DNA of 64,000 nucleotides, taken from assembly GCF_024713975.1 (NCBI RefSeq), contig NC_091108.1, positions 3,711,001 to 3,775,000 on the forward strand, read 5' to 3'. The DNA comes from Paralichthys olivaceus. Taxonomy: Eukaryota > Chordata > Actinopteri > Pleuronectiformes > Paralichthyidae. The notes below the pieces were generated by a model. That model made no database searches and was not told where the DNA came from. It was given only the letters and a program-made list of their open reading frames with translations. The position numbers were made by a program, and so were the translations under genes. Below, one piece after another: positions 26,958 to 63,962 of the stretch (its first letter is position 1; each line of letters begins with the position of its first letter).

Positions 26958-26997
<40 letters not shown>

Positions 26998-37669: not shown

Positions 37670-40600
37670 GTGAGTGAACTCCAGAAGTTCTTCTTCTCCT
37701 CACGAGCTGCTCGAGCTTTAACAACATCTTCTTCTCTGACAGGATCGATACGATGATCTGGATCTGGAGTGTGATGGAGGAGGTGTTGCTGTGAGTAACT
37801 AGTATTATATACTGTAATACCATGGATATTAATACTTCACTGTTTGTGTTGTGAGGGGGTTTGTAGTTTTAATACTCTAATGTCATGAATATTAATACTT
37901 TAACTTCTGTTTTGTTGTGAGGGGGTTTGTAGTTTTAATACTGTACTGTCATGAATATTAATACTTTAATACTCTAATGTCATGGATATTAATACTTCAC
38001 TGTTTGTGTTGTGATGGGGTTTGTAGTTTTAATACTGTACTGTCATGAATATTAATACTTTAATACAATAATGTCATGAATATTTATACTTTAATATAAT
38101 AATGTCATGAATATTTATACTTTAATACAATAATGTCTTGAATATTAATACTTCACTGTTTGTGTTGTGATGGGGTTTGTAGTTTTTAATCCTTTATGGT
38201 CATGAATATTAATACTTTAATACTCTAATGTCATGAATATTAATACTTTAACTTCTGTTTTGTTGTGATGGGGTTTGTAGTTTTAATCCTTTATGGTCAT
38301 GAATATTAATACTTTAATACTCTAATGTCATGAATATTAATACTTTAACTTCTGTTTTGTTGTGATGGGGTTTGTAGTTTTAATCCTTTATGGTCATGAA
38401 TATTAATACTTTAATACTCTAATGTCATGAATATTAATACTTTACTGTTTACGTTATGATGGGGTTTGTAGTTTTTAATCCTGTAATGTCATGAATATTA
38501 ATACTTTAATACTCTAATGTCATGAATATTAATACTTTAACTTCTGTTTTGTTGTGATGGGGTTTGTAGTTTTTTTCACCCCTATAATTAATTTAATAAC
38601 GTGTTTTTGAGTATTTGACCTCCGTCTGTGTCACTGGAAGTTTCACTATTTTTAGATGAATATTAGTTTAAATATAATGTTGTTTTTCTTCCTCTCCTTC
38701 ACTCTTCAGGAAAAAGCAGCGTTATTTGGTGGGATGTTCAAGAGATCCTCCAGATCTGCAGCTCCAGTTGTCCAGGAGCAGGTGAGTTTGTACTTTTAAT
38801 ATTTACTTTATGAGACTTAAAGCTAGAAATGAGCCACTTCACACTTTGGTTGATGAACTTTGATTTGTCAGTTGTCATATTAACTAAAGTTGATAAGAAT
38901 ATAACTTTTTATCATTTTGTGACTCTCTGTTTTATATTTTATTCTCCATTCATTTCCCGTACCAGGTGTAAGACTCATATTATCCTAATTTTAGACAGTT
39001 TTTATGAAGATATACTCAAACACAGACTCTGTTCTGACATCACAGGACAATTTATCAGCCAGCAGTGAACTTTCAAACAGCAGCGACAGCCTGACTGACA
39101 ACCACAAGGTGGGGAAATCATTTGTGTTTCATGTTTATATTCAAACCTTCTCATGTAAACTGAGGAAATTCATCACATTCTAAATCAGTGAAAGTTTATT
39201 ATTCATGTTCAGGAGAAAGGAGGCGGGTTGAAAGGAATGTTTAAGAAGACGAGCAAATCTGCCAAAGAGGCTCAACCACAGGTTGAAAAAACAAGTTGTC
39301 TTATATCATTTATTTTATTGAGTTTTGTAATTAAATGATCCTGAATGTTTACAGCAGTTTTCACACTGGATAAGATCCAGCAACACTTTTGTTGTGTCGC
39401 GTTGACAGGTCACCCTCTCGTTACAAAACCCTGAACTCTCCGGCAGTAATGACAATTTAATGGAAAACAAGTCATCGAAGGTGAGTTCAGTTTCTGCGCT
39501 GTGATATTTTACACTTTATTTATGTTTTTCTTGGAAACTAAACTTTTCTCTGCCCTGTTTCATTCTCCAGGACAAACCAGGTGTCCTGGGTGGGATCCTG
39601 AAACTACCGAACAGACCGGGACACGTCCGGAGGCCGTCACAGGTGAAACACGACCCTCACCTGGGAAACACGGTTATCGGAAGAATCCCTCGCTTGTTGA
39701 GTCGTGAGGCTGACGGATTCATTTTGTGTTTCAGGATCTTTTGGAGAGTGAACTCTCAGTCAGCGAGGGCAGTCAGTCTGAAAACACCAAGACTAAGGTG
39801 AGTCTCATCAGTGTCTTTCAGGAATGTTCATTACAACAAAAAAAAAAAACCTGTCCACTGCTTTTTAAACATCTTTACTGACAAAGCTGTGTCATGTTAC
39901 AGTTTCACACCAGAATAAAGTTCACAATCATCCCAACAGGCACCAAAATATGAAGAAATATATCATAAAACCCTTTAGAAAAAAGATAAACTAATAAATA
40001 CATAAAAACAAATTGAGTATATTACAGTAGGTGTGGTATTTGTCCTTCTTTCTCCAGAACAACATCATGTGATTCGTCCCTGACACACGTTATGGGCTCT
40101 GATGTGTTTGAATGGAACATTTGCGACGTGTGTTGTTGTTTTTGTGAGCGAGGTTAACCTGCTTTCATCAGCACTTTGAACGCCAGCTCGGGCTGATGTG
40201 TAAATCCCTGCCTGTCCCTCTGACCGCTGCAGCCAGTCGAAAAATACGGAGTTTATTTCAATTCACACAGCAAAAGTAATTTATTATGTGACGGGTTTTT
40301 TTTTCTTTCTTCAGGAGTCGGGTGGGATGTTGAGTGGGATGTTTAAGAAAAAGAAGACGCAGTCTCAGGTGAGAGTTGAGGATCTCGCTCGTCTTAAACC
40401 TGTGTTTCATCGTTAGTAGGTGAAAATAAGTGTAGACGCTTGTTTCGGTCTTTCAGGAGGATTTGACGGCACCAAGCGAAAACGACAATCTCTCTGAAAC
40501 GGGAAACACTAAGGTAAAGGTTTCTTCAAGCCTGTAAACTCTATGAACGTGTCTTCTACAGTTTGACACAAACAGGTTGTGGAAGTTTGTGTGTCAGGTA

Positions 40601-43600
40601 GAGAGACTGAAACCTGCACGGAAACCAGAGGAATGCTCCTCCGTGGGAAAATGTTCTTTAACTGCAGTCTTAATATTATTTCTATTTTTTTCCAGGATTT
40701 CGGTGGAGTGTTCAGTGGAATATTTAAAAAACCCCCAAAGGCAAAGACACGGTCTCAGGTGAGAGTTGTTTATCTCACTCGTCTTACTTGAACCTGTGTT
40801 ACATTACTAGTTGATGATAATAATATGGACGCTTGTTTCTGACCTTCAGGAGGATTTGACGGCTCCCGGCGAGCTCTCGGGCAGCAGCGACAATCTGTCT
40901 ACAACTAAGGTGAAGTTTCTTTAAGCCTGTAAACTCTGTGAACTTGTCTTGTCTTTAGCTGTGGTGTAAATATCGTTTTTATTTCTCCAGGAATCAGGAG
41001 GAATGTTCAGTGGAATATTTAAAAAATCTCCAAAGCCGTTCGGATCGAGGACTCAGTCTCAGGTGAGATTTCTGTCTATCGTCGTCTTATTTAAAAAAAT
41101 GTACATCACTAGTAGATGATAATAATAGTAGATGCTTGTTTCTGTCCTTCAGGAGGATTTGACGGCTCCCGGCGAGCTCTCGGGCAGCAGCGACAATCTC
41201 TCTGCAACTGGAAACACTAAGGTGAGTTTTCTTCAAGCCTGTAAACTCTGTGAACTTGTCTTGTCTTTAGCTGTAGTGTAAATATCATTTTTATTTCTCC
41301 AGGAGTCAGGAGGGATGTTCAGTGGAATATTTAAAAAATCTCCAAAGCCTTTCGGAGCGAGGACTCAGTCTCAAGTGAGAGTTGTGTGTCTCGCTTGTCT
41401 CACATTTGCCCGTGTGACATTATTTGGAGATGATAAATTCATTTGTTGACATTTCTTTGTCACCCTCAGGACGACTTGTCAGAACCCGGCGAGCTCTCAG
41501 GCAGCAACGACAATCTCTCTGAGAACAGCACGAAGGTGACGTTTGTTAAAAGGCTGTATCCTAACAACTCCAACCGTAACCGAAAATAACTTCATGTTGA
41601 ATTTTGTTTTCTCAGGAGAAAGGAGGAATTCTGAATAGCATGTTCAAAAAGAAAGGTGCCAAGTCTCAGGTAAGAGGAACGTTTTAAGGTTCTAATTAAC
41701 TTTGTGTTCTCAACACTGAGCCACTGATTACATGATTTTCCATTTCTTTTCTTTTTTTGTTTTCACATTATGAAAGTTATAGTATTTCACTGTTTGCAGG
41801 ATAATTTGTCTCTGGAGGTGGAACTCTTTGCCAGCAGTGACAGTCTGTCAGAGAAGTCTTCGAAGGTGAGGGAGGACGCTCGCTTGTTTGTTAACAACAA
41901 TGTTTTTCATGAAGATGTCGGTTTGAGACTTTAAAGAGCTTTGTCTTCTCCGTCAGAGTGGAGCCAAGAACCTGAAGAATCCTTTCACCTCCTCGTCTCA
42001 GGTCGGTTTTCTCCCTTCAGGCTAAGTATCCCTCCAGGAAGTTGTTCATGCTGTCGATTGTTGAAACGCTGATAAAACGTTTTGTTTCATATCAGGACAA
42101 AGAAAAAACTGAACGCTCAGGAGAATCGAATGAGAGTAGCTCCTCCACAGAGAAACCCAAAGTGAAACAGGTTGGTTACTGAATCTCTTCTCTGCTGCTT
42201 CAACAGCTCGGACTGTGCTGAGACTCGATGCTGTGAACACTAACCGGCTCCAAGAGTTTTTTTTTTAATGTTTAAATTCTGCTGTAGATCAGGATCAGAG
42301 CTGTAAACTGTTTCTTTAAGTGGAGAAGAAAAGTGTCTTTGTCCTGTTTCAGAGCGGTTTGACTGCGATGATGAAGAACACGTTCAACGCCGACAAACGG
42401 GTAAGATGCTGTTTCATCTCGTGACACGGAAGTTATGAAGCTGAATATAGTTTTATCAGAACAACGATCATCTCCGTCCACAGGAGAAGAACTCTGACAC
42501 TGATGATGAGGAGACCTCAGAGAATGACGAGAACCAGCCCGGCCACAAACAGGTCCGTCAGGTTTTTAAATGTTCATTTGCCTGAGGTTTTTGTTGCCTT
42601 TCATGTATTTGATCACGATTTGTTTTCTCTCATTCAGAATAAATTTGCTGAGGCGATGACAAAGCTGAATCCATTTCGATCTGCAGCCAAAGTAAGGGGG
42701 GGGGGGGGTTTAGATTGTGATGTTTTTATAGTGCTCAAGAATTAAGGAACATAACTATAGATGGATGTGATTCAAGAACTTTTTGTCGATATACTTTCAT
42801 ATTTAATATTTTATCTCATGCAGAAAGACACTGAAGACACAGAGACGCTCAAAGAGAACGAGAAACCAGTGGAAGAGAAGTCGAAACCGGTCAGTCGACA
42901 TATTGTATCAGCAATGAGTCATCGTGACCACAAACACACACACACTCGTTCGTGCTTCTATCTTAGTGAGGACACTCATTGACCTAACGCATTGCCCAGA
43001 CTCTAACCATCCAAACTAAATCATATAAGTGAGGTCTGGTCAAAATGTCCTCACTTTGTAAGGTCTTTGCTTAAAATGGTCCTCACAAAGGTACAAGTAC
43101 AGGAGCACACACACACACTTACTTTGTGCCCCCCCCCCCTTCCTCCTGCACAACACACTGTGTGTGTGTGTGTGTGTGTGTGTCTCCTTGTCAAGGTCAA
43201 AAGCAACATGATCCAGCGAGAAACAACAGAAAAGAGTGAAACACCAGCGGTCCCACCCAAACCAACTGCAGAGATTTGCATTCAGAGGGAACATACTGTA
43301 ACTGCTGCTCGGTGACCCGTGGCTCATGTGAAGCGTCTCCTCTGACTTCTCCTCTGACTGTCTCTGGCACTTTGTGTTGCAGGAAATGAAAAGGATATCC
43401 ACACACGATAAAGTGAATCCACGAGGGACCGAGGATAATCAGGTTCAGTTTGCATTTCCCACATTTACAAAATGTGCAGGAGTCCTGTAAATGTTTGTTG
43501 TCTGGTACATTTAAAGATATTTGTGAGAATGAGAATTAGATTGGTTGAATAACAATAACAAGTGGTTAAAGTTTTGTTTTTTTTAACACTGAGTATTGTT

Positions 43601-46600
43601 TTGTTCTCCGAAGGATAAAATGGAAATGATCTCCCGACAGAAAAAAGACACGGCTGCGGAGACTCCTGTCGTTCCTGTCAGACCATCAGAAGAGGTGGAG
43701 TAAACCTTCAGCGTAGACGGATCGTTGACTGTTTGTGTGTGTGGTCGGAGTTCATGTGTGTCCGTGTGAATCGATGCTGGAGTGTTTACCTGAACTGTTC
43801 TGCTTTGATTACAGGAGATGAAAAGAAGAGTGAGACTAAAGCCCAGGAGCAACCATCAGGTGCTGCTCTTCACTATCGTCACACAATGTGCATTGATAAG
43901 ATGCACTCACACATTTCAACGCATGCTTGTGCAATACACTGAAAATGAATCATTTATCAAATAAGTTGCTTACTTTGCTGCAGAGCCACTCCGATGATGA
44001 AGGTCTCAAACCAGACGAGTCTGCTGAGTCCAAAGACGGAGACGAGGTGAATCCTCCGGAGAGTAAAACAGTAAGTTTATCTCTTCACTCGTCGCTGTGG
44101 GACCGTTTGTCTTAACCTCGTAAAGTTTTGTTTGCCTGTTTATTTGTGATGTTGAAAAATCCTCATCCGCTGCTACATACAGGTGAAAACAAACATGGAG
44201 TATTTAACCACACGTGTTCTGCCGTGATTTAATCGTTCTACTTCCTGCTTCCTCATCATCAGTTCTCTCATGCAAACCATATGTGTTACTTATAGACTGG
44301 AGACACAGGAGCCTCCACCTGAACTTAGAAAAGTCGGACTGTTGACTGTATTTGATTGTTAATTAATCTTTTAGTGATAAGAGCTGATAGCGGTGAGATC
44401 AAGGATCCGAGCCTAGATACAGTTGCTCCAGTCCAATGTAATGATGAATGAAATGTAGTTGTTTGTCCTCATGTCCTCTAACGGTTTTTCAGACCAAGGT
44501 GAAAAAGCACAAGCACCACAACCCGTTTATGTCTCGTGCTGCATCAAAGGTACGTGGCACTGTTTTGTTCCATATTTGATTCGTCAACTTCTCACAGTTT
44601 TTTAACAAAAGCTTAAAAAGTCAACTTTATTTTAAAGATTTATTCTAGGTTATTTGTTTATGGTTTGTTTTAGGCTGCGTCTGATGACGAAGGACTGAAA
44701 GAAGAAGATGAATCTTCATCCAAAGAGGAAAAGAACGACGAGGAGGTCAAGGAGAGAAAAGAGGAGGTCAGTCAATGACATTCATTAGGATCCTTGTTAT
44801 TTCAGCTAAAAGAATATTTTATAATTTGACCTGAAGTAATGCTGCTTTTTCTTTTTTTTTTCTTTTAGACCAAAGTCAAGAAACCTAAGCGTCACAATCC
44901 CTTCATGCCACGGGTCAAGGTAAATCTCAAACACGGGACTTGTCCTAACTTGTCTCCTCCCTTGACGACAGTTCCTGTTTGTGTTAACACTGTCAACGTC
45001 TTTTGTAACACGGCAAACAACAGAGAACCAGGTCAAATCACTGGAGAGGAATTTACTGTCAGAGCGGCAGAAGAGATCTAAAGGATGAAATCTTATCGTT
45101 TAAACTAAACCTGTTTTTTATGTCACTTTTAATTTGCAAACGCTGGTCAGATGAGAAGTGGGAACATATAACAACCTCATCAGCACTTTTTAATTCTTAA
45201 AAAAAGAAAAATCCTCATTATTCTCATTTGAAATGTGATGACGGAGCTGGAGAACGCTGTCGGACACGTCTCACGTCCAATTAGGTTTTGATTTCATGAC
45301 CATGAACATAATCTTTATCGTCATCAAATCATCAATGAGCCTTTGTGACCTGAATGGAAGCATCTGTCTCTCTTCCTGATTACTCCCCGATCCCTCGTCT
45401 TGTCATGTTGTCAAGGTTACAGTTACAGTAACACAGCCCGAAGTGGAAACACATGCTGTTACTGGGTCATCGATATTTTACCCAGAGTTTTATAACTGGA
45501 TTCTTTTGGTTTAACTGTGTGTTTTAACTGTGTGTTTGTCTTTATCTGTTTCAGGCCAAAGTTATTCAGAGGCCTGGGCAAGACGCTGAAGAGGTAGAGA
45601 AAATAAAACCCTCGTCATTCTGTGTTTCTCTGAGTCCAGAAACGTGTATTTTGATCTTTCTTACTCTCCATTATTTATTTACTCACCTCTCTCACACACT
45701 GAGCATTTCTCTACATGCTAATTATTACTGTTTCTGTGTGACGTGTTGGAGTCTTCGTGGTTCAGGATTACAAAAGGTCTGTTTCAGTCACCTGACTCTT
45801 CGTCTCTTCTCTAAAAACAACCTCGGCCGTGCAGTTATTCACAGCGTTTGTCCCCAGGGCATCGCCTCAGCTCCCAGCAGAGATGATTATAGCCGACCTG
45901 TTGAGTTGTTGTTCTTCCCAAGCTGACATGTAACCCACCCCCCACACCTTCGCTCACAGTTTGTGCGCTGCCTCGGAAGATGAGACGAGATTAGGCTGCA
46001 ATGCGGCCAGACTTGTTTCTCTGCTTCCCTTTTCAACGCGTCCATTAAGGATTTCTTGTTCCCTACACTTCTGCAAAAAAAAAAACAGTAAAAACAAGTC
46101 AGTGTATTCAGAATCGCTTTCACTGTCACTTCCTCCTCTGAATCTGAGCTCACGCAGGACAGAAAGAGAAACAACTTATATGATTCTTAATGTTTTTCAG
46201 CCTCGTGTCTTCTGTTGTTCAGCTACTCTGCAGAGCCAGAGCTGTGATCTTGACACAGGGTTTTAGAGACTGTGTGTATATTGTTTCACATTTGTGTTAT
46301 CTGGATATTTAGACATGTTTTTCAGCTGTATGATTTCTGTGGTCTCAGAATGAAGGTGGAAACAGGTCCTTGTTCGACCAGCTGGAGGATTTACGTGTTG
46401 ACCCGTCAGAGCCTGAAACCAATCAGGTTAATATCTAAAACTAAATAAACATCACCACATTAAGATTTTAACTGATGCATGTTAATAAACATAAAAATTG
46501 CAAACCCACACAAACCCTGATGTTATCTTTCAGGATGTGGAGGATCTCATGGAGTGGTGGAACACGGTGGAGCGTAAGTGTAATCTGTAATCTGGAAGAA

Positions 46601-47925
46601 AAGTATACTTCAGTATATGATGTCCATGGGCCTCATGTTCTGGATATTTGCCTTGTAATGTGTCCAACGTGATTGGAAAACTAACGATTGTCTTATATTT
46701 ACTTCCTCAGAATGGGAGGACACGCCTGAAGTTGAAGACATGACAGAAAAAGAAGAGGCCAAGTATGTTAAAGCTCACACGTGTCTTTTGCTGCATCTCT
46801 TCTTTGACCTCTTAATGGTCACTTCACCATGTTTATCCAGTTTTGAGATTTCCACGTCTAAACTGTCTCTCACTGACCCAATCAAACCACTTCCATCCAC
46901 CTGGTTAGAAAACTTATTTTTAGATGCAGCGACTTCTTTGTGATAACTTTCAACTTTCTCTTTTCAGGGCGTTTGCTTTAACGGCTGAAAAGGTACAGAA
47001 AGGAATCCGTGTGTTCAACAAACTGTTCTCCGAGCGAGCTGAGAGTCTCTGGGAGCACGTCATCGTCCTCAACGGCATCGCCGACAGCTTGGACAAATTC
47101 AACAAGAAAACAAAGATCGCTCAAATCACCGGCGGCTCCACCAGCGCCATCGGGGGCGTCGCCACCATCGCTGGCCTCGCTCTGGCCCCGATCACCATGG
47201 GAACCTCTCTGATTGTGACGGCAGTGGGGTTGGGCGTGGCCACGGCGGGCGGTCTGACGTCAGCGGGCGCCGGCATCTCCAACCAGGTCAACAACTCCAT
47301 GGACCGCAAGAAGGTGGAGAAGATCGTGGAGGACTACCAGGAGAAGATGCTGGACTTGAACAAGTGCCTGAAATTCATCAAGCAGGGAATCGAAAACCTG
47401 CGCAAGTTCGACCTGATCAAGATGAAGAAACACGCGTACAACCGCGACTTCCCTGTGCTCAGCAGTAGTTTCTACGAGGACGGCGCCATGGCAGGAAAAG
47501 CTATCCTCATCAACGCCAATGAGATCATGCGTGTGGTTCAGATCGCCAACGTGGCCGGCAGCACGGCGGCCAGAGCGGTGCAGATCGCCAGCATGGCCAC
47601 TGGCGTTCTCACTGGACTGTTCGTAGGTATGGACATCTACTTCGTGGCCAAAGACTCCAAAGAACTCAAGAAAGGGGCCAAGTCAGAGTTCGCTGCCAAA
47701 ATCAGGGATGTGGCCACGCAACTGCACGACGGTCTGGTGGAGCTCAACTCGATACGAGAGGAGCTGCAGTCCACGACGCCAGAGGCCAACGAAGAGGACG
47801 AAAAAGCTGCTCTGGAAAATGACGAGAAGGCGAAAGAGTATAAATATGACAGTTCAGATGAAGACGAAATCGACCGCATTAAGAAAGCCATCAAAGAGGA
47901 CCTCGAAAACCGAGAGTATGTTTGA
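37667..47925 (+). CDS. ApoL-domain protein with mini-exon array, tandem copy 1
   Basis: Thirty-seven exons whose phases close to 1065 codons (1064 aa). The initiator ATG is the last codon of exon 1 (37669); exon 2 (37743-37790) encodes DRYDDLDLE. Then come eight alternating A/B mini-exon pairs (38710-41865), a linker of duplicated exon pairs with NPF and SH3-ligand motifs (41957-45593), exons 46349-46426, 46534-46573 (DLMEWWNTV) and 46711-46762, and one 958-bp exon (46968-47925) with the whole ApoL-like domain. There is no signal peptide, so an intracellular protein is expected. Human APOLs are interferon-inducible membrane-active proteins; function here is inferred. I cannot name a characterised orthologue. 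Least certain exon ends: 43196-43297 and 43383-43442. Confidence 0.82.
37815..38575. repeat. Intronic minisatellite, unit about 97 bp
   Basis: Intron 2 of ApoL-type gene 1 repeats GGGGTTTGTAGTTTTAAT and GTCATGAATATTAATACTTT. Full units at 38170-38575 are about 97 bp apart; the left part is more irregular with shorter sub-units. Confidence 0.92.
38710..41865 (+). repeat. Array of eight A/B mini-exon pairs in ApoL-type gene 1
   Basis: Type A exons: 38710-38781, 39213-39281, 39571-39642, 40315-40368, 40696-40758, 40991-41062, 41303-41374 and 41616-41669 (core GGMFSGIFKKSPKP). Type B exons: 39046-39108, 39409-39480, 39735-39797, 40457-40513, 40850-40909, 41153-41221, 41470-41535 and 41800-41865 (core ELSGSSDNLSE). 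They alternate strictly. All are 54-72 bp multiples of three, follow a CAG acceptor and most begin with a Glu or Asp codon. Type A is basic with Phe/Met/Ile at i and i+3/i+4 and a Ser/Thr-Pro-Lys end. Type B is Ser- and acid-rich. Confidence 0.9.
42964..43100. mobile_element. Dispersed fish repeat
   Basis: Intronic block beginning TTAGTGAGGACACTCATTGA and ending GGTCCTCACAAAGGT, partly inverted at its ends. It resembles a non-coding repeat that I recall from many fish introns. A CA/poly(C)/TG microsatellite follows it. Confidence 0.55.
43108..43184. repeat. CA / poly(C) / TG compound microsatellite
   Basis: CA run, then about ten C, then about 28 bp of TG, ending roughly 12 bp before the acceptor of the exon at 43196. 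Confidence 0.9.
46968..47925 (+). other. Single exon encoding the apolipoprotein-L-like domain
   Basis: The 319-residue domain starts with amphipathic helices (FNKLFSERAESLWEHV). A Gly/Ala-rich hydrophobic hairpin follows (GGVATIAGLALAPITMG, then VTAVGLGVATAGGLTSAGAG), which is the hallmark of APOL proteins, and then long helices. A second hydrophobic segment at about 47560-47650 includes SMATGVLTGLFVGMDIYFV. The tail is acidic and lysine-rich, ending ENREYV. Confidence 0.85.
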
Positions 47926-48950
47926 ACGAGCTCTATCTCGTATTTTGATAAAACAGGTTTAGATTTATCAAAGAGAAAAGTGCAGAATCTTTTCTAGACT
48001 TTATATTTTTGACCTTTTTGAGTCTCAGCCAAGTTCGTCGGTTCATATCGAGGCACTGGACTTTTTACCGACCAGTGGCAGAGGTCGCGTGTTGTTAATG
48101 ATTAGAAATACGGTGTGATGCAGTTTCATTAAGTTGTGTAGTTGAGGTGAAAGAAACCACTTTGGATCTGATGTGGGATGTTCATGGTTCGTTTGGCTCA
48201 ATGATGATAACTCATTTTAAATATTGATCGAATATAATAATATAATAATACTAAGCTTTGTTTATATCTGCTGGGCAAAATGGATTTATTTATACAAAAG
48301 AAATAGTGCCAGTCCTTTGTAAATGTAGCTGTTACTTCATTTATACGCACAGGGAGAAAAATATTTCATCTCATCGGGTTTAGAGGGATGTTAGGGGAAT
48401 AAACTAATGTTGTGTCTAATGTTATTAATGTCATTTTTTAAAATTGTGTTATATTGTGTCTTCCAACTTTACATCATTATTAAACTGCATTTTGAACAAG
48501 TGTCAAATAAAACATGCCAGCGATATTCTACTTTACGTTTTCACTCTAAATTCATTGTCATAGTTTAAATGACGATTTATAAAATGTACCAAACAGTGGA
48601 TAAACCGGCTCCAGGCCTCCAGCCACTTACTGATCTCATTTTCTGATGTATTAGATGATTGAATGGTTTCCAGGTGTAACATACATCCTCCTTAGAAAAC
48701 TGGAATGACACTGGACTGTTAGAACCAGCGACCTGCCCTGAAAACACCCAGGTCCTTTTGTTTTTTTTTTAAAGAGATTTATTTCATATTGAAGGTTCGA
48801 TGTGTCGTCTTGTACTGTTTTATATTTATTGATCTTCGGTCTTACTCTGGGTTGATCTGGTTATTTGGTGACACCTTTTATGTGCAATATACTGTAGAGC
48901 TTCATGTGCAATAAATTTAAATTGTTAATAAAAAGTCAGAAACACAATCT
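47926..48950 (+). other. 3' UTR of ApoL-type gene 1
   Basis: AT-rich, no coding frame. AATAAA signals lie at 48506-48511, 48910-48915 and 48927-48932, so alternative polyadenylation is possible. Confidence 0.65.
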
Positions 48951-52226: not shown

Positions 52227-52230
52227 GAGG

Positions 52231-55200
52231 ATGGAGGCGTGCATGATGAAGCCAGAGGTCAAAGGGAAACCGAAGCCGGTGAGAACATCTGCATCCAGAA
52301 CCGAAAACACTGATTCTGTATCCAAACTCAGCAAAATACCAGAAACACAAAGATATAACATATGTCCTGATACACAGACTTTGTACTAATACACAGTGTT
52401 GTCCTCTGTGTTTGCAGCCTAAACCTCCTCCAAAGCCCACCGAGGTACTGGAATCAAACCTCGTGTGTGCTAACGTGTGTTTGCTGTAGTAGTAGTACAT
52501 GAGATTTATTCTGTGTAGGACTTCTTGCAGCGAGGCCACACACCCTTGTGCAAATAATGAAATCAGAAATTATCTTTCCAGATTAAGAGAAGTGACCCAG
52601 AGAAACCAGCTCCCGTGGTTCCTCCTCGACCTTCAGACGCTGTGAGTCCAACATCTCGTGTTCGGCCTGTTACACTTTTACGAGATGGAGGTTCTGAGAT
52701 GAAGCTACTTCTGGTTGAAGTATTTTGCTCGTGTGTCTCTGGAGCAGATGTGGTTCCAACGCGCTTTAAACATCTGGCACCATTTAAGTAGATTTCTTTT
52801 AGTCTGGGTTGTAGTGGAAAAAGTTTTACGGCAGATCCTTTTCCGCAGTCACACTTTTTTTTTTTTTTTAAAGGAGACAAGTTCTACTAAAAAAATATAA
52901 TATGAAAATATCTACATGTTCACCTGTGTCAGGGGGCGGGGCTTATTACCTGCAAAATGTGCAATTTAAACTTTATTTATACAGCAACTTTCAAAAGACA
53001 GTGATTTACAGGTTAGAAATTTCACAACTTTCACAAAAACCTATAAAACACAACAGAGGAAAGAAAAAATCTAAATATTCTCCCTGCTGTTTTTCTAAGA
53101 GTCTGTAAATAAGGAGAATTGTCCACTTTGGATGAAAGACTTTGCTTTTTTTCCGTCCAGGAACTGACTCAGACACAATACAGAATAAAAAGAGCAGCAG
53201 CGACAAACAATGAGGTATTTACTGCACTTGTTACACATTCATTTTTCTTTTTACACACAAGCGTTGATTTTAATTAGGAAGCTGACGTTACAGATATTTA
53301 TTGATCGATTGATTGATTTCCGAACATGAAGAAAATGTATTTTATCTTTTATCTTGAACAACCTGTCCGAAGTTATCATGTAAACATGAACATGAAGTAT
53401 TTAACATGTGGCTTTCATACTGATTTGAATAAATACTGTGCACACGTTTACTTTTATTCCCTGAGTGGATTATTGAGTGTGTTGTGACCTTTTTTTCCGT
53501 CTGTGTCAGGATGATGGAAAAAAAGACAGAAAAGTGAAATCGTCTGAAACTCCTCTGGCTGCGCCTCGACGCAGAGACAAGGTTCAGTACCCAACCAGCC
53601 ATGCATTTTCAACTGAACAGTTAATACGACTCCAGGTATTGTGGGAACACTTGTGTTTGTGTTGTGATCAAAGCTAGTCAGCGTCAGAGTGTGAGAACAG
53701 TTTACAGATAAAAATCTCCCTGAGCCACTGAAGGTTTCATGTTTCTTTCGTGTTTCCTGTATCATATTCTAATCGTATTGTTGCCTCTGGGCTTCTTGTG
53801 TGTGTGTTTGTTGTGCAGGAACTGGACACAACAAGCAGGAGGACACACACTGAGGACACGCAGGTACACAAACAATGCAACCTCACATTCCTTTGTGCTT
53901 TTTTAAAATAAATGTCAGAGTGAACGTTCTTCCTCTTTCCCTCAGAGAGAAACGAACAAACCAGCTGCTAAAGATGAAGCAGATTTCAAACAGGTAGAAG
54001 TGTCCGACCACATTAATGAGGCTTGCACACAACATCTTCCTCTTTCTTTACACGCGCTTTGATTGCAGAATAAACCGCTGGACCTGACGGGAATGTTCCG
54101 ACGGAGCCAGAAGGAGAAAACGTCCACGTTCACTGTAAGAAAAGCACCTGAAGGAACTCCTGTCTGCTCACTGAGCCGCACTTTACTCACCTTTACATGA
54201 GTTCCATTGGATTTTACCATTGTTCACTCTGACAGTTTATTATTTTAGTATTTATAACAAATCACACGCTGCTGTTTTTCTCAACGTCTCCAACTGACTC
54301 TCAAAATGAAATTAAAGCAACACGTTTTGTATTTTCACGTTAAAAAGCGCCGCAGCACAGAACAAGATATTTTTGATATTCTAGTCTCTATTTTATTCTA
54401 CCTGTTAATCATAATAAATTGTTAAACATGTATTAATACAACTATTCCGACAACACACACACACAACGATGTCGGTTCAACAGCTGAGTCAAATCCTGAA
54501 TCCCTGTTGGCTGTTGAGGACATTTTACTTTGTAGTTAAACAAACATGTAAGAATTCAAGTATAAAAGTACAAGAATGAATTCATGAGTCACTTTGTAAA
54601 AGAAGCTCAACAGGTTTCTGGTGTTAAGCGGATGTGTGTGTGCGTGTGCGTGAGTGTGCGTGTGTGTGCGTGTGTGTGTGTGCATGTGTGTGTGTGTGCG
54701 TGTGTGTGTGAGATCAGTGGGTGTGTAAATTTGTCAGCATCACATGAGTCTCATAAACTTCAGAGAATTAAATTAAAACCGTGATAAATAATATTTTTGA
54801 CGTAGTAAATGAATGAAGCAGTTTTTTTTTTCCAAAGGGAATTTGTTAAGGTCAACATTTGTTCTCCTCCTCCTCCTCCTCCTCCTCCTCCTCCTCCTCC
54901 TCCTCCTCCTCCTCCTCCTCCTGCTCCTCCTCAGAGTTATGCGTTTGACGACTGTGACGAGGAGGAAACAAGAAACGTCGACGTCTCGGCCAAGCAGGCT
55001 CCTGGCAGCAAACCGGTGTGTGTTTCTCTCTGTGTGCATGTGGACGTGTGTGTCATCGGCCGGTCTGTGACATGTGACTGTTGTTGACAGGGCGTTCTGA
55101 AGGGAGTAAAGAAAGGTTGGCAATTCAAGTCGTCACCTAAGGTACAAAGAAGAGCTGTGTTTCAGTGTTTCCTGCTGCTCTCTCTCTCTCTCTCTCTCTC

Positions 55201-58200
55201 TCTGGTCGCTGAGTTTGCTGTTTGGTTTTGAAGACGTTGAAATGTTGAAGAGCTGCTTGTGAAGAACATCTGCTAACATTCCTCATTCTGCTCTGTGATA
55301 GCTCAGCCTCAGCTGTGTCTGCTGCTCAGCCTGTTAAGAGAGTAAATGCATCTTATTATAATAATTATGTTGGTCTTTTCTTCAGCTCTTTACTTTCTGG
55401 CGTCTTTGGGCTACAAGTTTAAAAGTTTGACCGTTGACGTCTCTGGTTCACAACCAACCTGGGACCTTTGTCGGCGTCACACTCGGATGTTTTCATGCCA
55501 CAAACTTCTGTCTGCTTTTTCTAAACTTATTGGTTCGGTCACTTTCTTGCATCTTGCTGGTTTGAATTAATTGATTTAAAAAAAAAAAATTAAATTAAAT
55601 AAAAAATGTATTTAAAGGTTCAGTGTGTAGAATTTAGTGATATCTAGTGTTGAGGTTGCATGTTGCAGCTGAACACCCCTCACCTCCCCCTCTCCTTCCA
55701 AACATGAGAAAGAAACTGTGTTAGACTTTAATTGTCATAAAAACTCAAAAGCTGTTTAGTTTGTTCAGTCTGCAAAAAACATGGCGGCCTCCGTAGAGAG
55801 GGTCCCCTCGATGTAAACATAAAGTATTTTAATATAAACGGCCTTTTCTGGGGTAAAGAAAATTACATGAAAATACAATTTAGATGAAATGAACTCGTGA
55901 AAACATCATGAGGATTATTCCTCATTAAATTTCTGCCAGTAGTTCCCTTTCCCCTAAATCTGACACACTGGACCTTTAAATATTCTGTCCGAATTTCTGC
56001 ATCATTTCAAATCGACCCTGTTTTATTTGTAGAGCAGCTGCAAATATCAACAAGTGAAATATTACAGAAGGATCCTTTTCAATCCTGGAGAGGGTTTAGA
56101 TTCTGGTGAACGCATGAGCCTATAATCTCTTGTCGAGTGTAACTGATGATCCTGTTGATTCTCGTCTCAGATGAACAGAGATAAGAGTCCAAGTCCCGGC
56201 TCCGAGGACGGAGTCGCAGAAAAAGAACAAACTGCAGAAAAAGAACAAACTGCAGAAAAAGAGAAAAACAAGCTGGAGAAAAACACAGAATCCAAACAGG
56301 TGAAATCATATAAACACATAAAATCATAACTGACTCGCTGCTCTGCTGGATCAGTGATTTATGTGTTGTATTATATATGATACTGTGGATAAACTGTACA
56401 TTTGATTTCTCCACGTTTCCTCAGGACAAAGGTCTGCTCACTGGGATGTTCCGGAAAACTCCCAAAGAGAAATTATACCCTTCACTGACGGTAACTGAGT
56501 TTAAGTTCATCCAAGACTGAATTCCCAGTGTTGAGATGATTTCCAGCCTGCTCACTCGTTGTTGCGTTCACCTGCAGGTCAGTAAAACAGATCACGAAGA
56601 CGAAGACGAAGAGGTGGAGAAAATATCCGACCAGCCTCAGGTTCCGTCTTAATATAATATTTATATGAAGGAGAAAAGAGATTCACAAGGTTAATAACAG
56701 ACTCAAGTCGAATAGTGATGATGATGATAATGATAAAAATGTCTTCATCATTTCACCACAGGAGAAGGGAGGCCTCTTCTCTGCTATCTTTAAAAAACCT
56801 GACAAACCAGCAGATGAGACACCTGAACGGGTGAGCTGCCTCTAAAATAATCTGATAATATAATAAAATAATAAAATAATAATATAATAAAATAATAATA
56901 GTTGTTTATTTGCATCAAATGTCTGATTCTGTCTCAAGCTGAGTTTGTATATGTGTATGTGTATTTTAATGTCGTCTAATAAAGTGTTGATGTGAACGTT
57001 GATGTTTCAGGAGAACCTGAGCGCCCACAGCGAGCTGTCGGCGAGCAGCGACAGTCTGTCTGAACACAACAAGGTGAGCAGCTTCAGTTCATCTTTAACT
57101 CACAGAGGTTACGCACGAGTCACCGACCTGAACTTCATCTGAACGAATCCACCGATGTGAAAACTTGTGTCTGCTTCAGGAAAAGGGAGGAATATTCAGC
57201 GGGATGTTCAGGAAAAGTCCGAAACCAGCAGAAGCAGCTCAGACCGACGAGGTGATGTAAAAAAAAAAAAAAAAATAATAAAACTTGTCAGTTGAGTTTA
57301 ATCGTCATGCTGAATTTTTGTGTTTCCAGGAGCAACGTGACGACGTGTCGGGCAGTAACGATAATCTGTCGGAAAACTCGAAGGTGAGCTGAGAGGTGAA
57401 GTGATCATGACGCAGCGTTATCGTTAGTATCGTATCTGACGGTGTGAATTCACTGGTGTGACGTCAGCAGGATAAAGGAGGATTCTTCAGCGGGATTCTC
57501 CGGAAGTCTCCCAAGATTCCTGCAGAGGGAACATCTGGGCAGGTCAGTGTGTGGTGCTCCTGCAACATGTGGAGCTCCAGTCGAGGATGTTTTATTTTGT
57601 TTCCCTGTTCCAGGAGGAAGATTTAAATCATTTCCGTGTTGTTGATTTGCTCATTTGAAATAATCACGTAGCTAAAATCTGTCTGTGTTCAACCTTTTAC
57701 ATTGTTTCCTGCAAAATATCATTAAAAACAAGTTCCCTTTTGTGTTTTTAAAACATTTTTCTCTTTTTACATTTAACATTTTCCTTGTTGAGTTTCAGGA
57801 GAAAGAGTCGCTGGGGACTGAGCTGACAGCCAGCAACGAGAATCTGTCTGAGAACAGCAGCACTAAAGTAAGATTTGTTTCTTTTTCACAAACGGAGGAG
57901 GACGTCCTGTTCAAAAACGTTTCTGTGTCTCACTTCGTTTCTTTGTTCACCAGGAGAAAGGAGGCGTCTTCAGTGGAATGTTCAAGAAATCTCCCAAACT
58001 GTCCGAAGGACCTCGACTGGAGGAGGTGATTTATTAACTTTTACTCTGAAGCTTTTGCAGATTTAACTTCACAGTTTGGCTCAAAATACAAAACAGCCAG
58101 TGAACATTTAATGCACCTGATTCAAACATACTGTAAGTTCCTGAATTACCAGGCAGCTGCTCGGCCTCTGCAGTAATGAGGTTATTGCAACATGTGCAAA

Positions 58201-61200
58201 CACGCCTGTGTCAGTATTGTCTCCGCAGCTGGTCCCAGGTCTGTGTGTAGGTGTAGCGAGCGTTCGTGTTCACACAGGTCGAGTAACATTTTTTTGTTTA
58301 GGCCGCGGAGCCGCTGCACGGTGAACTCTCCGCCAGCACAGACAGCCTGTCGGACAACAAGGTGAGAGGAGTGACAGACGCACCCACCGCCCGCTGCATG
58401 AGTCACAGACACAAACACGAAGTCTGAGCTAAAGTCGCTGGATGATAAAGTTCCTGAGATTTTATTTTGATGAAGGAAAACGATTCTTCAGTTTGATTTC
58501 AGTCTGTTTTCTTCCTGTGTAGGAGAAAGGTGGTTTGTTCAGTGGACTCCTCAGAAAAACTCCCAAAACAACCGGAGAGGTACAAACACGAGTAGTTTCC
58601 ATGGAGCTGCTCTGAACCGACAATAAACTATGAACACAAATATAAAGTATAAAGAAACAGCAGATTTTCGTGCTGTGTGACGCTCGGTGAACTCTGTGAA
58701 ACTGGCTCAGGGCCAGTTTGAGCTGCCTGGGGGAGGGGCTCTCTCAGATTTAAATCTGCACCCACGGCTGAAAGGGTCATTTTTCTTAAAAGAGTAAATA
58801 TCAAAGTTAAAATACGTCCCACAAGTTTTCTCATGAAGCTTCACTCACCACAGTGGCGTCTTTATACACGATGCATTGATCCAACACTGATCACACGATC
58901 TGATGTGAGCATGTGATTCTTGTTTCAGGAGAATCTGTCGGCACAGAAGAATCTGTCGGCGAGCAGCGACAGTCTGTCGGAGGCGTCCAACACAAAGGTG
59001 ACGCTCTCAGGCTTCTCTGGAAATGTGTCTGTTTATACATTTAAATGCAAACTTAATGAAAACAGTGTTTTCTTTGTGGTTTTGAAGTCGAATACTGAAA
59101 ACAACTTACTACTGCACTGCTCTAACTTTCTTTTATTTGCTCTGTTGTTAAGTAGATTTTTTTATTCATACGTGTCATATGTTCTAAATTGATTCCATAT
59201 TCTGAGGATTAAATAACGTGAATAAATAGAGAACCTGTGTTTCAGGAGAAGGGAGGTGCGTTCAGTGGAATATTCAAGAAATCGTCCAAACCTGCAGACG
59301 TTCCCACAGAGAAAGTGAGAAACAATATTTCAGTATTTGTGAGGAAAGTAAATTCATCTCCGCTCTGGAGCAGGTTATGATTGAACTGTTCTTCTGCCGC
59401 AGGACGCTGAGCTGAGCGGCAGCAGTGAAGCTCTGTTTGAGAACAACACCAAGGTGAGAGGCTTATTTCTAAACAGCATTTCAAAGTAACTTCCCTAAAA
59501 GGACATTTTCTGACATGTTGGCGTGTTTCAGGAAAAAGGAGGAATATTTAGTGGAATATTCAAAAAACCGACCAAACCTGCAGAAGCTGCTGAGTCTGAG
59601 GAGGTGAAGTGTTTTCATTTCTTAGAACGTGGACGTTCATCACTGTAATGATGTAATAATCAGTCCTGATGATTCATCAGTTAGTCGACACGAACCTTTT
59701 ACAGAAATATCCGTGTCACAGTTTCTGTTTGGACACATCAAAACTTTTATTTTACAGAACTAACACCTTTAAAAATTCTGCACATTTTTTCAAGTTCTAT
59801 ATATCTGTGTTTTCTTTTTATCTTCATGTAATTTTCCACAAGGTTTTGATTTTGACATCTTAGGAATCATTGTGATTTTATATATATATGAGAATTTAGG
59901 AATAATAAGTTCAGTTCAAGTGATTAGTTGTTTACACTTCACACTTTTCCACCATTAAAGTAATAAATTCTTGTAGAATCTTTGAACAATAACCCAGGAG
60001 ACTGCAGCTGCATCAAATATTATCTCCTTATTTCTAATGTGGTCACATTAACCACAACTTTTAATCTGTGACAGGATGAATCTCCGGATAAAGAGCTCTC
60101 AGGCAGCAGTGAAAATCTATCTGAGAACAAGCAGGTTATTGAAACAGTCTCGTTTCTAAACATTTAAACTTTTTAAAAACACTCGTCTCGTCCTAAAGCT
60201 CGTTTCTCTTCTGTTTCCATCAGGAGAAAAGTGCGGGTCTGTTCAGCGGACTCCTCAAGAAAACTCCCAAAGCCTCAGGAGAGAAGTCAGAGTCGCCGGT
60301 GAATGAAAGTCTGCTCAGAGTTTTTTCAAACCATCACATGAATCCTCGTGTTTCACTCAGCTTTGATTGTCTGTGTTTCAGGAAAGAGAAGAGAAGGAGC
60401 TGTCGAGCAGCAGCGACGACCTGACGGAGAATAAGGTGAGCGGTGACGTGCAGCTGGAACCTTTGGATTAAAGTGTTTTTTCAGGTCTTTCACTGATTCA
60501 CCAAATTATTTTTCAGGAGAAAAACATTTTCAGCAACATGTTTAAGAAGCCGCAGAAACCAGCAGAGGGCGCTGCAGCAGACAAGGTGCTTAACATCATG
60601 AAATGAGTTATTCAAACTTCTCTGAAAGATGAAACTGATTCTTTGACTGTTTCTCTTGTTTGAATTCAGGAGCAGGACGGAAACGGTGGAAAACAGATTT
60701 CTGGAAGCTTTGAGAATCTGACGGACGCCACCGTCCAGAAGGTTTTTCTTCTTCTTCAAATCCTCTTCACTTAAGATGTTTTCAACTTGACAACGTGAAC
60801 TGAAACCAGATCAGAGATATTTTAATAACAATAGTTTGTAGTGAACTTGAAAATGATTAATGATTAATTTGAAAATGACAAATAAACATTAAATACTGTA
60901 AAATAAAAGAAAGGAATGAATGAAAGTCTTAGTTGATTTAAGTAGTAAAACTAATGCCACATTGGAAAAATACTTTTTATACAAGTAACTGAAGAATAAT
61001 CAGCAAAATGTACAAACATAGAAAATAAAAGTATTCAGTACACAGAAGTAAATTATAGCTTTACATATAAATGAGTCGTAAAAACATTAACAGTGTTTGT
61101 AGTTTTTATTCCTAAGATTTAATTCTGATTCTAGAAAAGAGTGAATACGTCTGATTCACACTGAAATAAAGCTGTTTTCACTCTTCACTCAACTTCTCGT

Positions 61201-63962
61201 TGTGTGTCTGAATGTTTCAGGAGAAGAAAGGAGGCCTGGGTGGAATCTTCAAAAGGTCGTCCAGCATTGACAACCTGTTCGATGAGGTCAGTATCAGTGT
61301 GTCTGTGAAGAGACGACCTCTGTCAACCAATGATAACTTGTCTGTCCAACACTCTTTGGTTTTTGTTCCTCGTCACTGAACCGTCCCTGCATCTTCATTT
61401 TGTGCTCGTCAGGAGAAAGGTGGACTTTTCAGTGGCCTCCTCAAGAAAACACCCAAAGCGTCTGGAGATGATGCCGAGGTGAGTCCGTGTTTCCGCTCCG
61501 AGCATCGTCGTCTGTCGGGGACTGACGCTCGTTAACCGTTCATCGTTGTTTTCTTCACTCAGGACAAAGACGAGCTGAGGGCGAGTAACGACAGTTTGTC
61601 TGAAAACACCAACACCAAGGTACAGAACTGTCACCTCCCTGAGTCTACACGTTTATCTTAGTGCCACGAAGCAACACAACTGCTCCCGTGCGTTTGATCA
61701 CATCAGCTGTTCTGATGTTCTCTCACATTATTTCAGGAGAAAAGTATTTTCAGTGGGATGTTCAAGAAAACTCCAAAAGCAGCAGACGAGGTGCTTTTTT
61801 AATGTGAGGTCGACGTCATGTGACACTGAACTTGTGTATTAATGTGTTTTTATTTTCAGGAGTCAAACTCAGACGAGGATAAGAAATTATCAGCCAGCTC
61901 CGAAAATCTGTTAGAAGTGAACAAAACGAAGGTACGAACATCTCATTCCGTTTCTCTCCTTTCGTCGATCATGCATCGATTATTAACGTGTCGATGTTTC
62001 GCGCGTGTCAGGAGAAAAGCGGAGGACTTGCAGGCATCTTCAAAAAATCTCCCAAACCGGCTCCGCGCTCTGTCGCCACCAAGGTGAACTGCTGATGTGC
62101 AAGTTGGGTTTTTTTACGACCATGAAATCTCACATGAACTTTTTTTTAAACCGTTCAAACTGTTCTCCAGGATCCACTCTCGAAGGAACTGTCCTCCAGC
62201 AGGGACAGTCTGGAAGATGCTGCCGAGGTGAGAGCTTCTACTCAAATACTGAACCTTCATGAGAATACTTGGTTTCCTGCGTACATGTGAATACTGTTGA
62301 CTGGTTTACCACAATGAATACACAACTCTAAGGAGCAGGGAGGCCCCAAAACTATTTTTATTTATTTAATTATTGCTGTAAAAACTTGGAACAGAAACAT
62401 TTTTTATCAGTTTGTATCATATGTTTTCTGAAATTGCTTTTCAGGAGGATCCGTCAACACAGCGTGAGATGTTTGCCAGTAACGAGAATCTCCTTGAAGC
62501 TACAGGCAACGCGAAGGTGAGTCTGTTCCGGTGAGAGAACGTGTTCGACTGCGTGAGCTGCTCGTGTTCATGTGTTATTTTTTATCACAGGAAACTAAAG
62601 GAGGATTTGCTGGGATGTTCAGGAGGACGCCGAAAACTGTGGAGCCACAGGTACGATCGTATCAGCGCTGAGACCCTGACGTGTTTAACTATTTCTATGA
62701 TCCGTAGTGAGAAAACATGAAACAGATTAAAATACAAATACAATAATATATGTGTTTCTATGTGGACGACTGTTCCTGTGTTTCTGTTCCGTAAATATGT
62801 TTTCCCTGTGTTGCAGGAGAGCGTGGACATGGAGGCTCCACAGGGAGGCGGGCTGAAACGCAGGAGGACGATCAAGAAGAAAAGACGAGTGAGTGGTTGG
62901 ACGTATTCAACCACATGAATTTCTCCTCAGTGAAGACGTGTAAACTCTAATCGTGTGTTTGTATTGTTTGATTTCCTCAGATCGTGTCTTTCAGAATCAA
63001 GAAGACTCTTCCTAAAATACCGAAGGGGACACAGGTATGTCGCTGCTCCTCAGTCTCTCTCCCTGCTCCTGTTCTTTAACTGCATCACGGATCTGAAGAG
63101 AGAAACATTTCCTTAGTTTAAAATAAAGTTTACTTACAATAGCTTATTTTCAGGGTTTCTATACATTAAGTTGCATAAAAGGTTTTTCAAAAAGTGATTC
63201 CATGTGACTCAGATCAACATTTTCATTTATGCTTTGTCCTTTTTTTTTTAAATTTAAATTGTTTGAAGACATTTTCTTCTTTCTCTTTTCTCCTGCTCAG
63301 TCTTCAGATAAGATGCCAATCATCACGGAGACAGTGGAGATGCAGGAGCTGAACCCGGCACAGGTTTGCATGAGAATATTATATCATGCATCATGTCCAA
63401 CAGAGCCTCTCGCTAAAACACATCCACTTAGGATATTTCATTTTTATCAGCAGCTCATTGATAAACACAGATATTTACCAGTTGGTCATGAAGTGAAAAC
63501 CCAGACGTGTGCAGATGTTCCAGGGGAAATGTTTGTGTTAAAAGTTGTGTTACAGTTGTGTGTGTTTTCCAGGAGAGCACAGTGGAGGTCCAGCCTGTGG
63601 TGATGGCAGCGTACCCGACAGAAGGCGACTCTCTTCAGTCTGAGCTGGTGCGTTTCAGTGCTCGTGTGTGGTTTCGTGTTTTTCTCCATGAATTCAAGAT
63701 CTCAGCTTCTTCTTCACGGTTTGTTTTCAGGAGAACGATGAACTGACCGAGTGGTGGAACACAGTGAAAGGTCAGTGTTCATTTGATAACATGCATGTTT
63801 TGTATGTTTATAAGTAGAGAAGTTCTCCAACAGGAGAAAATGTGGAATTCAATCAATGACTTGAAACTAGTGTTAATACCAATCATACAGTTTCTGCTGC
63901 TGGTTTCCAGGTTGGGCAGAGTGGAACGAGATTTCCAATTTCCAGCCGGAGGATGGAGAAAT
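52231..63962 (+). CDS. ApoL-type mini-exon array protein, tandem copy 2 (3' end off window)
   Basis: Forty-six exons, all phase 0 until the last two. The ATG at 52231 lies in exon 52227-52278. Early exons: 52418-52444 (PKPPPKP), 52582-52641 (APVVPPRPSDA), 53161-53214, 53510-53635, 53819-53863, 53946-53993, 54069-54134 (TGMFRRSQK), 54935-55015, 55091-55141, 56171-56299, 56425-56490 and 56578-56640 (possibly ending at 56613). The A/B array follows at 56762-62650. Then 62817-62888 (very basic), 62981-63034, 63301-63363, 63573-63647, 63732-63771 (EWWNTVK) and 63911-63962. The last two are 40 and 52 bp with the same phases as 46534-46573 and 46711-46762 of copy 1, so an ApoL exon probably follows beyond 64000. 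No signal peptide. Start codon less certain than the array. Confidence 0.8.
54636..54715. repeat. (TG)n microsatellite, interrupted by CG
   Basis: TG/CG dinucleotide run in the intron before exon 54935-55015. Confidence 0.85.
54866..54934. repeat. (TCC)n microsatellite forming a splice acceptor
   Basis: More than twenty TCC triplets with one G interruption run directly into the CAG acceptor of the exon starting at 54935, so the polypyrimidine tract is a triplet repeat about 69 bp long. Confidence 0.95.
55173..55203. repeat. (CT)n microsatellite
   Basis: Pure CT run about 30 bp downstream of the exon ending at 55141. Confidence 0.9.
55611..55980. mobile_element. MITE with terminal inverted repeats
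   Basis: The left end TTTAAAGGTTCAGTGTGTAG and the reverse complement of the right end agree at 17 of 20 positions. The interior contains ACATGGCGGCCTCC and is non-coding. This is a familiar non-autonomous DNA transposon in fish genomes. TTTAAA at both ends leaves the target duplication ambiguous. Confidence 0.8.
56762..62650 (+). repeat. Array of A/B mini-exons in ApoL-type gene 2
   Basis: Type A: 56762-56830, 57180-57251, 57471-57542, 57954-58025, 58523-58579, 59246-59314, 59532-59603, 60224-60298, 60517-60585, 61221-61286, 61413-61478, 61737-61790, 62012-62083 and 62591-62650. Type B: 57011-57073, 57330-57383, 57799-57867, 58302-58361, 58929-58997, 59403-59453, 60075-60134, 60382-60435, 60670-60741, 61563-61619, 61860-61931, 62171-62227 and 62445-62516. 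All are 51-75 bp and phase 0. Alternation breaks twice: two A exons adjoin at 61221-61478 and two B exons at 62171-62516. Three more A-like exons (54069, 55091, 56425) precede the array, giving about 17 A and 13 B. Confidence 0.88.
56855..56900. repeat. (AATAATAAAATAAT)-type low-complexity repeat
   Basis: AT-only run of TAATA/AAAATAA units in the intron after exon 56762-56830. Confidence 0.8.

Follow-up and report, generated by a model that had tools for sequence, protein, structure and literature searches.

A 64,000-nucleotide window of the Paralichthys olivaceus genome (NC_091108.1, positions 3,711,001 to 3,775,000; the coordinates below count from the first letter of the window) contains two adjacent genes, gene 1 and gene 2, in which short exons of two kinds, A and B, alternate in long arrays. 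Both genes lie on the + strand, as do all of their exons described here and a TEP1-like gene directly upstream of gene 1. Gene 1 ends in an exon encoding an apolipoprotein-L (ApoL) domain, and the reading that we favor, at a probability of roughly 0.55, is that the two genes are tandem ApoL-family paralogs with an exon-encoded multivalent tether tail. The initial annotation, which placed two adjacent genes with alternating phase-0 A and B mini-exons at 38710–62650, described the arrays correctly, all 43 modeled array exons being in phase 0 at both ends; its interval, however, begins only after the first two exons of gene 1, which start at 37667, and takes in the ApoL exon (46968–47925) without naming it.

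In total, 22 A and 21 B exons were modeled (8 A and 8 B in gene 1; 14 A and 13 B in gene 2). Each of the 43 is preceded by AG and followed by GT, has a length that is a multiple of three and contains no stop codon, and any subset could, as originally proposed, be skipped without a frameshift. The A exons measure 54–75 nt and the B exons 51–72 nt, all within the 51–75 bp range first given. In composition, A is Gly/Phe/Lys-rich and B is Ser/acidic. The net charge of B is negative in 21/21 exons, as expected from its description as acidic, whereas the description of A as basic holds in gene 1 (+2 to +4) and only in part in gene 2 (−1 to +5; nine of 14 exons positive, four zero, one negative). The gene 1 array consists of A1 (38710–38781), B1 (39046–39108), A2 (39213–39281), B2 (39409–39480), A3 (39571–39642), B3 (39735–39797), A4 (40315–40368), B4 (40457–40513), A5 (40696–40758), B5 (40850–40909), A6 (40991–41062), B6 (41153–41221), A7 (41303–41374), B7 (41470–41535), A8 (41616–41669), and B8 (41800–41865), which are exactly the eight strict pairs counted at the outset. 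The gene 2 array consists of A1 (56762–56830), B1 (57011–57073), A2 (57180–57251), B2 (57330–57383), A3 (57471–57542), B3 (57799–57867), A4 (57954–58025), B4 (58302–58361), A5 (58523–58579), B5 (58929–58997), A6 (59246–59314), B6 (59403–59453), A7 (59532–59603), B7 (60075–60134), A8 (60224–60298), B8 (60382–60435), A9 (60517–60585), B9 (60670–60741), A10 (61221–61286), which has no B after it, A11 (61413–61478), B11 (61563–61619), A12 (61737–61790), B12 (61860–61931), A13 (62012–62083), B13 (62171–62227), B14 (62445–62516), which follows B13 directly, and A14 (62591–62650). The earlier count for this copy, about 17 A plus 13 B, was right for B and only close for A, for which we find 14 clear exons and two A-like ones (A0a, 54069–54134, identified by a similarity test; A0b, 56425–56490, identified by that test and by the cross-gene profile).

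The two classes were recovered independently with profiles built from one gene and searched over the six-frame window, the reversed window serving as control. The gene 1 A profile recovered 14/14 gene 2 A exons (E 2.7e-9 to 0.021), and the gene 2 A profile 7/8 gene 1 A exons (E up to 0.041), missing A3 (E 5.6). The gene 1 B profile recovered 9/13 gene 2 B exons at E<0.01, with B12 and B14 weak and B9 and B13 unmatched; the gene 2 B profile recovered 6/8 gene 1 B exons at E<0.02, with B3 and B4 weak. The best E values in the reversed window were 0.46 and 0.81 for A, and 1.7 and 7.2 for B. A frame-blind scan, in which exons were picked on splice scores alone, with no rule on frame or length and at three thresholds, gave the same picture. 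At the laxest threshold, 14/15 picks in gene 1 and 12/13 in gene 2 were open, phase-0 multiples of three, all of them exact A or B exons, compared with 3/25 in the TEP1-like region, 1/10 in the first 18.8 kb of the window, where 8/10 picks had lengths divisible by three and only one was open, and 0/4 when the arrays were scanned on their minus strand. At the two stricter thresholds the values were 11/13 and 10/11, then 7/9 and 2/3, for gene 1 and gene 2, respectively, and 1/12, then 0/6, for the TEP1-like region. A Pfam search of the joined arrays returned nothing above cutoff. The A/B exon pattern is confirmed as real and beyond chance.

The substitution pattern indicates that these exons encode protein. 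Over all pairs, the bootstrap median ratio of nonsynonymous to synonymous differences per site (pN/pS) is 0.51 (0.45–0.57) for A and 0.59 (0.51–0.66) for B; since pS is 0.65–0.76, the true ratios are probably lower. Constraint is concentrated in the cores GG-F-G-FKK-PK of A and EL-S-D-L-E of B, where pN is 0–0.19 in the F, K, L, and S columns, and the module tails are nearly free (pN near pS). Among nearest pairs, differences at the first, second, and third codon positions number 97/90/176 for A (19 pairs; 176/363 at third positions) and 95/96/157 for B (18 pairs; 157/348 at third positions). Judged from these comparisons, purifying selection acts on the motif cores, and the third-position excess together with the core constraint implies that the array exons are translated, or were until recently. 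The alternative that the arrays are decaying repeats, in which many exons are unused relics, could draw on a few weak splice sites and on two breaks in the gene 2 alternation, yet it is very improbable given that 43/43 exons are open with AG/GT sites, that changes are in excess at third positions, and that the introns, when searched for dead A/B exons, gave no alignment score exceeding those of reversed and minus-strand controls. The best intron match to the A profile, a poly-Lys stretch (3.3 bits, E 1.1), lay above the best control (1.5 bits) and was not significant. Two individual candidates were discarded: a B-like stretch (PLSTNDNLS) in the A10–A11 gap of gene 2 had a Smith-Waterman score of 23 for B against 31 for the best of 480 controls, and the B13–B14 gap, where a dead A exon was sought, was outside the six best introns for A.

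Alternation of A and B is strict in gene 1, where all 15 neighbor changes are between classes (shuffled-label P about 1e-4); in gene 2 the claim of alternation has to be softened to 24/26 changes (P about 2e-5), with breaks at A10–A11 and B13–B14. The origin of the order is visible in gene 1. Introns among units 4–6 are 77–94% identical, compared with a median of 65% (95th percentile, 75%) when 46 short introns from both genes are paired, and because these units are alike in both exons and both introns, an A-intron-B-intron block must have been copied as DNA. In keeping with this, distances of A and the following B co-vary (Mantel r 0.64, P 0.013); for B with the following A the correlation is r 0.50 (P 0.066). 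Gene 1 contains a second two-exon unit, an acidic E exon followed by a basic NPF-bearing K exon, that is duplicated at 43984–44919 (P 0.0005 for each exon). A further candidate duplication in gene 1, of a P unit, was dropped, P1 and P3 being alike (P 0.0005) but P2 and P4 not significantly so (P 0.07), and in gene 2 the exons N3/N5 and N4/N6 were not significant as a duplicated pair (P 0.25 and 0.39).

Tandem duplication of a two-exon unit yields both alternation and an intact frame, and no selection for alternation is needed. This mechanical origin lends itself to a second alternative, that the arrays form a disordered linker whose length has changed largely neutrally, by gain and loss of units, and whose module number and order have little function, and with which the different copy numbers of the paralogs, the two breaks in gene 2, and the poorly conserved module tails would agree. 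The motif cores, however, are clearly constrained across both genes, the gene 1 A profile still finds every gene 2 A exon, and we regard this alternative as unlikely.

The same exon symmetry has a bearing on splicing. A third alternative, that the arrays form a combinatorial isoform generator in which varied A/B subsets give many proteins of differing valence, perhaps upon immune stimulation, is also improbable in our view. Phase symmetry allows skipping of all 43 exons, yet exon duplication alone yields phase symmetry too. Mean donor scores, computed with position weights not trained on fish, are 4.9, 5.8, 3.0, and 4.4 in the four array groups, all above the value of 1.0 for six TEP1-like donors. 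With the same kind of weights, acceptors average 8.3 and 6.0 in the two gene 1 groups, 3.8 in gene 2 A, and 4.7 in gene 2 B, compared with 4.7 for seven TEP1-like acceptors. The array splice sites are therefore generally not weak, the exception being the gene 2 A acceptors, which, like single weak donors in gene 1 A2 (gttgaa) and gene 2 B9, A5, B11, and A12 and single weak acceptors in gene 2 B1, A3, and A6, would suit such a generator. The exons with single weak sites are the first candidates for skipping. A parallel comes from human APOL1, in which exons 2–4 are differentially spliced and exons 5–7 are present in all protein isoforms (PMC12248677), so that in an APOL gene the upstream exons can vary and the late exons stay constant.

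The last exon of gene 1 (46968–47925) matches the Pfam apolipoprotein-L family PF05461 with 125.8 bits (curated cutoff 25.9; E 3.1e-36) over profile positions 44–297 of 298, and gene 1 is thus a member of the apolipoprotein-L family, to which human APOL1–6 and zebrafish apol1 also belong through the same domain. The ApoL exon is preceded by a 40-nt WW linker exon, W (46534–46573), ending in phase 1, and by W2 (46711–46762; 52 nt, phase 1 to 2). Gene 2 has a W exon of the same length (63731–63770) whose sequence is common to the two genes (P 0.0005), and a W2 exon (63911–63962) of 52 nt that likewise runs from phase 1 to 2. Since W and W2 match in length and phase, the gene 2 ApoL exon should follow beyond 64000, and gene 2 is probably also an apolipoprotein-L gene. 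A single-sequence structure model of the gene 1 ApoL exon was all-helical but had a mean predicted local distance difference test score (pLDDT) of only 39, and a PDB sequence search gave two marginal matches (E 0.07), both to components of bacterial toxins. Relatives were also sought in two sequence collections. In IMG/VR, two of 16 candidate loci were confirmed (37% identity over residues 25–112, E 8e-5 relative to the candidates); the match of one of the scanned open reading frames (1,176 aa) is a hydrophobic stretch around ALAPITMG, and we judged it to be no relative of gene 1. That reading frame (L001, 4443–7973) has repeated NPFL motifs near its start in addition to the ApoL-like hydrophobic stretch. 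None of 36 candidate stretches in GTDB contigs was confirmed. In zebrafish, apol1 is without a secretory domain and one reported locus is about 2.6 kb (PMC4492502), whereas gene 1 spans more than 10 kb and has about 37 coding exons.

With the short form of exon P1, the 37 coding exons of the gene 1 model encode 1,056 residues; the long form adds eight. Translation probably starts at the ATG at the 3′ end of exon 1 (37667–37669, followed by gtgagt), and exon 2 (DRYDDLDLECDGGGVA, 37743–37790; 48 nt, phase 0), found by a phase-0 splice scan, precedes the array. Within the intron immediately 5′ of the array lies an AT-rich tandem repeat (38004–38540) in which a 91-nt unit occurs seven times, at spacings of 31 to 97 nt. 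Between 41957 and 44919, basic exons are interleaved with exons that are acidic or neutral and unrelated in sequence: K1 (41957–42001), E1 (42096–42170; Ser/charged, net charge 0), K2 (42353–42400), E2 (42484–42552), K3 (42638–42691), E3 (42824–42889), P1 (43196–43297), P2 (43383–43442; weak donor), P3 (43614–43694), P4 (43815–43859), E4 (43984–44070), K4 (44493–44549), E5 (44674–44766), and K5 (44869–44919). E2, E3, E4, and E5 are acidic, E5 resembling E4 and K5 resembling K4 by similarity test. All five K exons are basic, and four of them (K1, K3, K4, and K5) carry NPF, K2 being the one without it. P1 bears the proline motif PAVPPK and is resembled by the proline-motif exon P3; its boundaries are uncertain, as there is no GT at 43273 and a phase-0 GT occurs at 43297. 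X1 (45555–45593) and X2 (46349–46426) lead to the W exon.

The gene 2 model has 46 coding exons inside the window and may start in exon N1 at 52231 (52231–52278). Upstream of the array are N2 (52418–52444; proline-rich), N3 (52582–52641; PVVPPR), N4 (53161–53214), N5 (53510–53581; PLAAPR, weak donor), N6 (53819–53863), N7 (53946–53993), A0a, N9 (54935–55015; acidic), N10 (55091–55141; basic), N11 (56171–56299), A0b, and N13 (56578–56640; acidic, weak donor). The array is followed by the basic exons Y1 (62817–62888) and Y2 (62981–63034), then by Y3 (63301–63363) and Y4 (63573–63647), and by the W and W2 exons.

Several features of the encoded tails bear on where the proteins would act and what they might bind. 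Neither inferred start is followed by a hydrophobic leader (the best 11-residue hydropathy window starting within the first 60 residues is 0.9 in gene 1 and −0.2 in gene 2), so the proteins are probably intracellular. NPF is a ligand of EH domains, and PxxxPR a ligand of CIN85/CD2AP-type SH3 domains. The gene 1 tail has four NPF motifs compared with 0.08 in shuffles, and the gene 2 tail has three PxxxPR motifs, one of them inside A13, compared with 0.15. ApoL proteins act on membranes (PMC11726835). A may be a membrane-contact segment, as suggested earlier, and the ApoL domain in gene 1 makes a membrane setting more plausible. The companion proposal that B is a phospho-regulated spacer gains no support from the simplest test: CK2-type [ST]xx[DE] sites in B number 16 against 24.9 in within-exon shuffles (12/21 exons carry one), and S-x-E sites are not enriched (11 against 12.3). 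[ST]P is present in 12/22 A exons and, over whole tails, lies below shuffles in gene 1 (4 against 8.2) and slightly above them in gene 2 (17 against 11.3, P 0.044). The A exons bearing [ST]P could be phospho-regulated instead of B.

In the arrangement that we favor, each gene would encode a membrane-active ApoL domain preceded by a long N-terminal tail that is probably disordered and intracellular. Each phase-0 exon of the tail contributes a single short motif: A modules, which are basic and aromatic, alternate with acidic Ser-containing B modules, and other exons add NPF motifs in gene 1, or proline motifs. Growth of the array is ascribed to tandem copying of the two-exon unit with its introns, which gives the alternation and the intact frame. 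The repeated basic aromatic modules and those resembling short linear motifs most likely anchor the ApoL domain to membranes or to trafficking adaptors, acidic modules would act as spacers, and module number would be set mainly by exon gain and loss, perhaps with some exon skipping. An extension of this proposal holds that the multivalent tether is adjustable: by splicing, or by quickly gaining and losing exon pairs in the germline, fish would vary the number of membrane-binding and spacer modules ahead of the ApoL domain and so control how far a pore-type innate-immune protein reaches and how avidly it binds. This extension seems to us distinctly unlikely.

Several observations weigh against the tether tail interpretation. 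The evidence is genomic sequence from a single species, and the exons are predicted. In gene 2, whose units seem more ancient or more rearranged, co-duplication of A/B units is undetected (Mantel r −0.08, P 0.70; for B with the following A, r 0.14, P 0.16). The same gene shows weak alternation of charge (25/38 sign changes, P 0.05), and sign alternation among the non-A/B modules is not significant (P 0.06 in gene 1; P 0.29 in gene 2). The 34 non-A/B phase-0 modules of the two genes were bounded mostly by eye, several have weak donors, and the first choice of boundary for P1 had no GT. The motifs are not shared, NPF being absent from the gene 2 tail and PxxxPR from the gene 1 tail, and neither tail is enriched in PxxPx[KR], the general pattern of SH3 type (2 compared with 0.40 and 0.69; P 0.06 and 0.15). 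Charge blockiness as a driver of condensate formation was considered separately and not adopted, the signal being of moderate strength in gene 1 (z 3.6, at 10 residues) and weak in gene 2 (z 2.0).

The initial annotation knew of no described system of this form, which is too strong in view of elastin, the PEVK region of titin, and the micro-exon genes of schistosomes. Elastin exons are of uniform phase. As in genes 1 and 2, elastin has alternating domain types that are mostly exon-encoded, with 57 and 59 exons in zebrafish compared with 34 in human (PMC8875079). Elastin differs in being an extracellular elastomer with hydrophobic and cross-linking domains, with no sequence relation to the genes here and no ApoL domain. 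The cross-link motifs KAAK and KAAAK are absent from both of our translations, a weak test when taken alone, as KAAAK is likewise absent from fish elastins (PMC8875079), and the lack of a hydrophobic leader at the inferred starts also sets genes 1 and 2 apart from a protein secreted as elastin is. Titin PEVK has about 100 exons (113 annotated in human) in an array that, as here, is expandable, with expansion and contraction by duplication and alternative splicing that alters length; it is a PEVK-rich muscle spring, for which the text consulted (PMC6469411) mentions no strict alternation of the A/B kind. In contrast, the modules of genes 1 and 2 are Gly/Phe/Lys-rich or Ser/acidic and, in gene 1, belong to an ApoL gene. 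Schistosome micro-exon genes have exons of 6–81 bp, most often 15 bp and mostly multiples of three, undergo alternative splicing, and encode secreted proteins with a signal peptide; short exons in multiples of three are common to the present arrays (43/43, 51–75 nt), whereas an alternating pair unit is not mentioned in the accessible part of the source (PMC10526429), and the low hydropathies at the inferred starts of genes 1 and 2 (0.9 and −0.2) do not resemble a signal peptide. Exon arrays as such are therefore already known, and what appears to be new is an alternating, frame-neutral exon array on an ApoL gene. No A/B array on any ApoL gene was found in the open-access literature on apolipoprotein L in fish, a weak negative, as it covers open-access text only and in part.

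Directly upstream of gene 1 lies a + strand gene (about 18800–36158, its start set by eye and its last exon ending at 36158) in which Pfam finds TROVE and DUF4062 domains and which we call TEP1-like; this neighbor offers a synteny handle for locating the array genes in other fish. Farther upstream, a − strand open reading frame (4482–5144) has a Bax1-I match below threshold (28.5 bits; cutoff 34.1), and two short, mutually similar open reading frame stretches (8322–8348 and 11107–11133; EMFTGNRKQ..) are perhaps a dispersed repeat. Rfam gave no matches in the window at the gathering score.

Genes of this kind are easily split, truncated, or misnamed in annotation. Even with constant inclusion of every exon, the amplification of two-exon units could be read cleanly from this locus, as from a natural archive. 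If the tail tunes ApoL function, the locus would exemplify a membrane-active family evolving avidity through duplication of frame-neutral exon pairs, with one motif per exon, and fish APOL proteins would have a layer of control distinct from the signal-peptide and N-terminal splicing of human APOL1.

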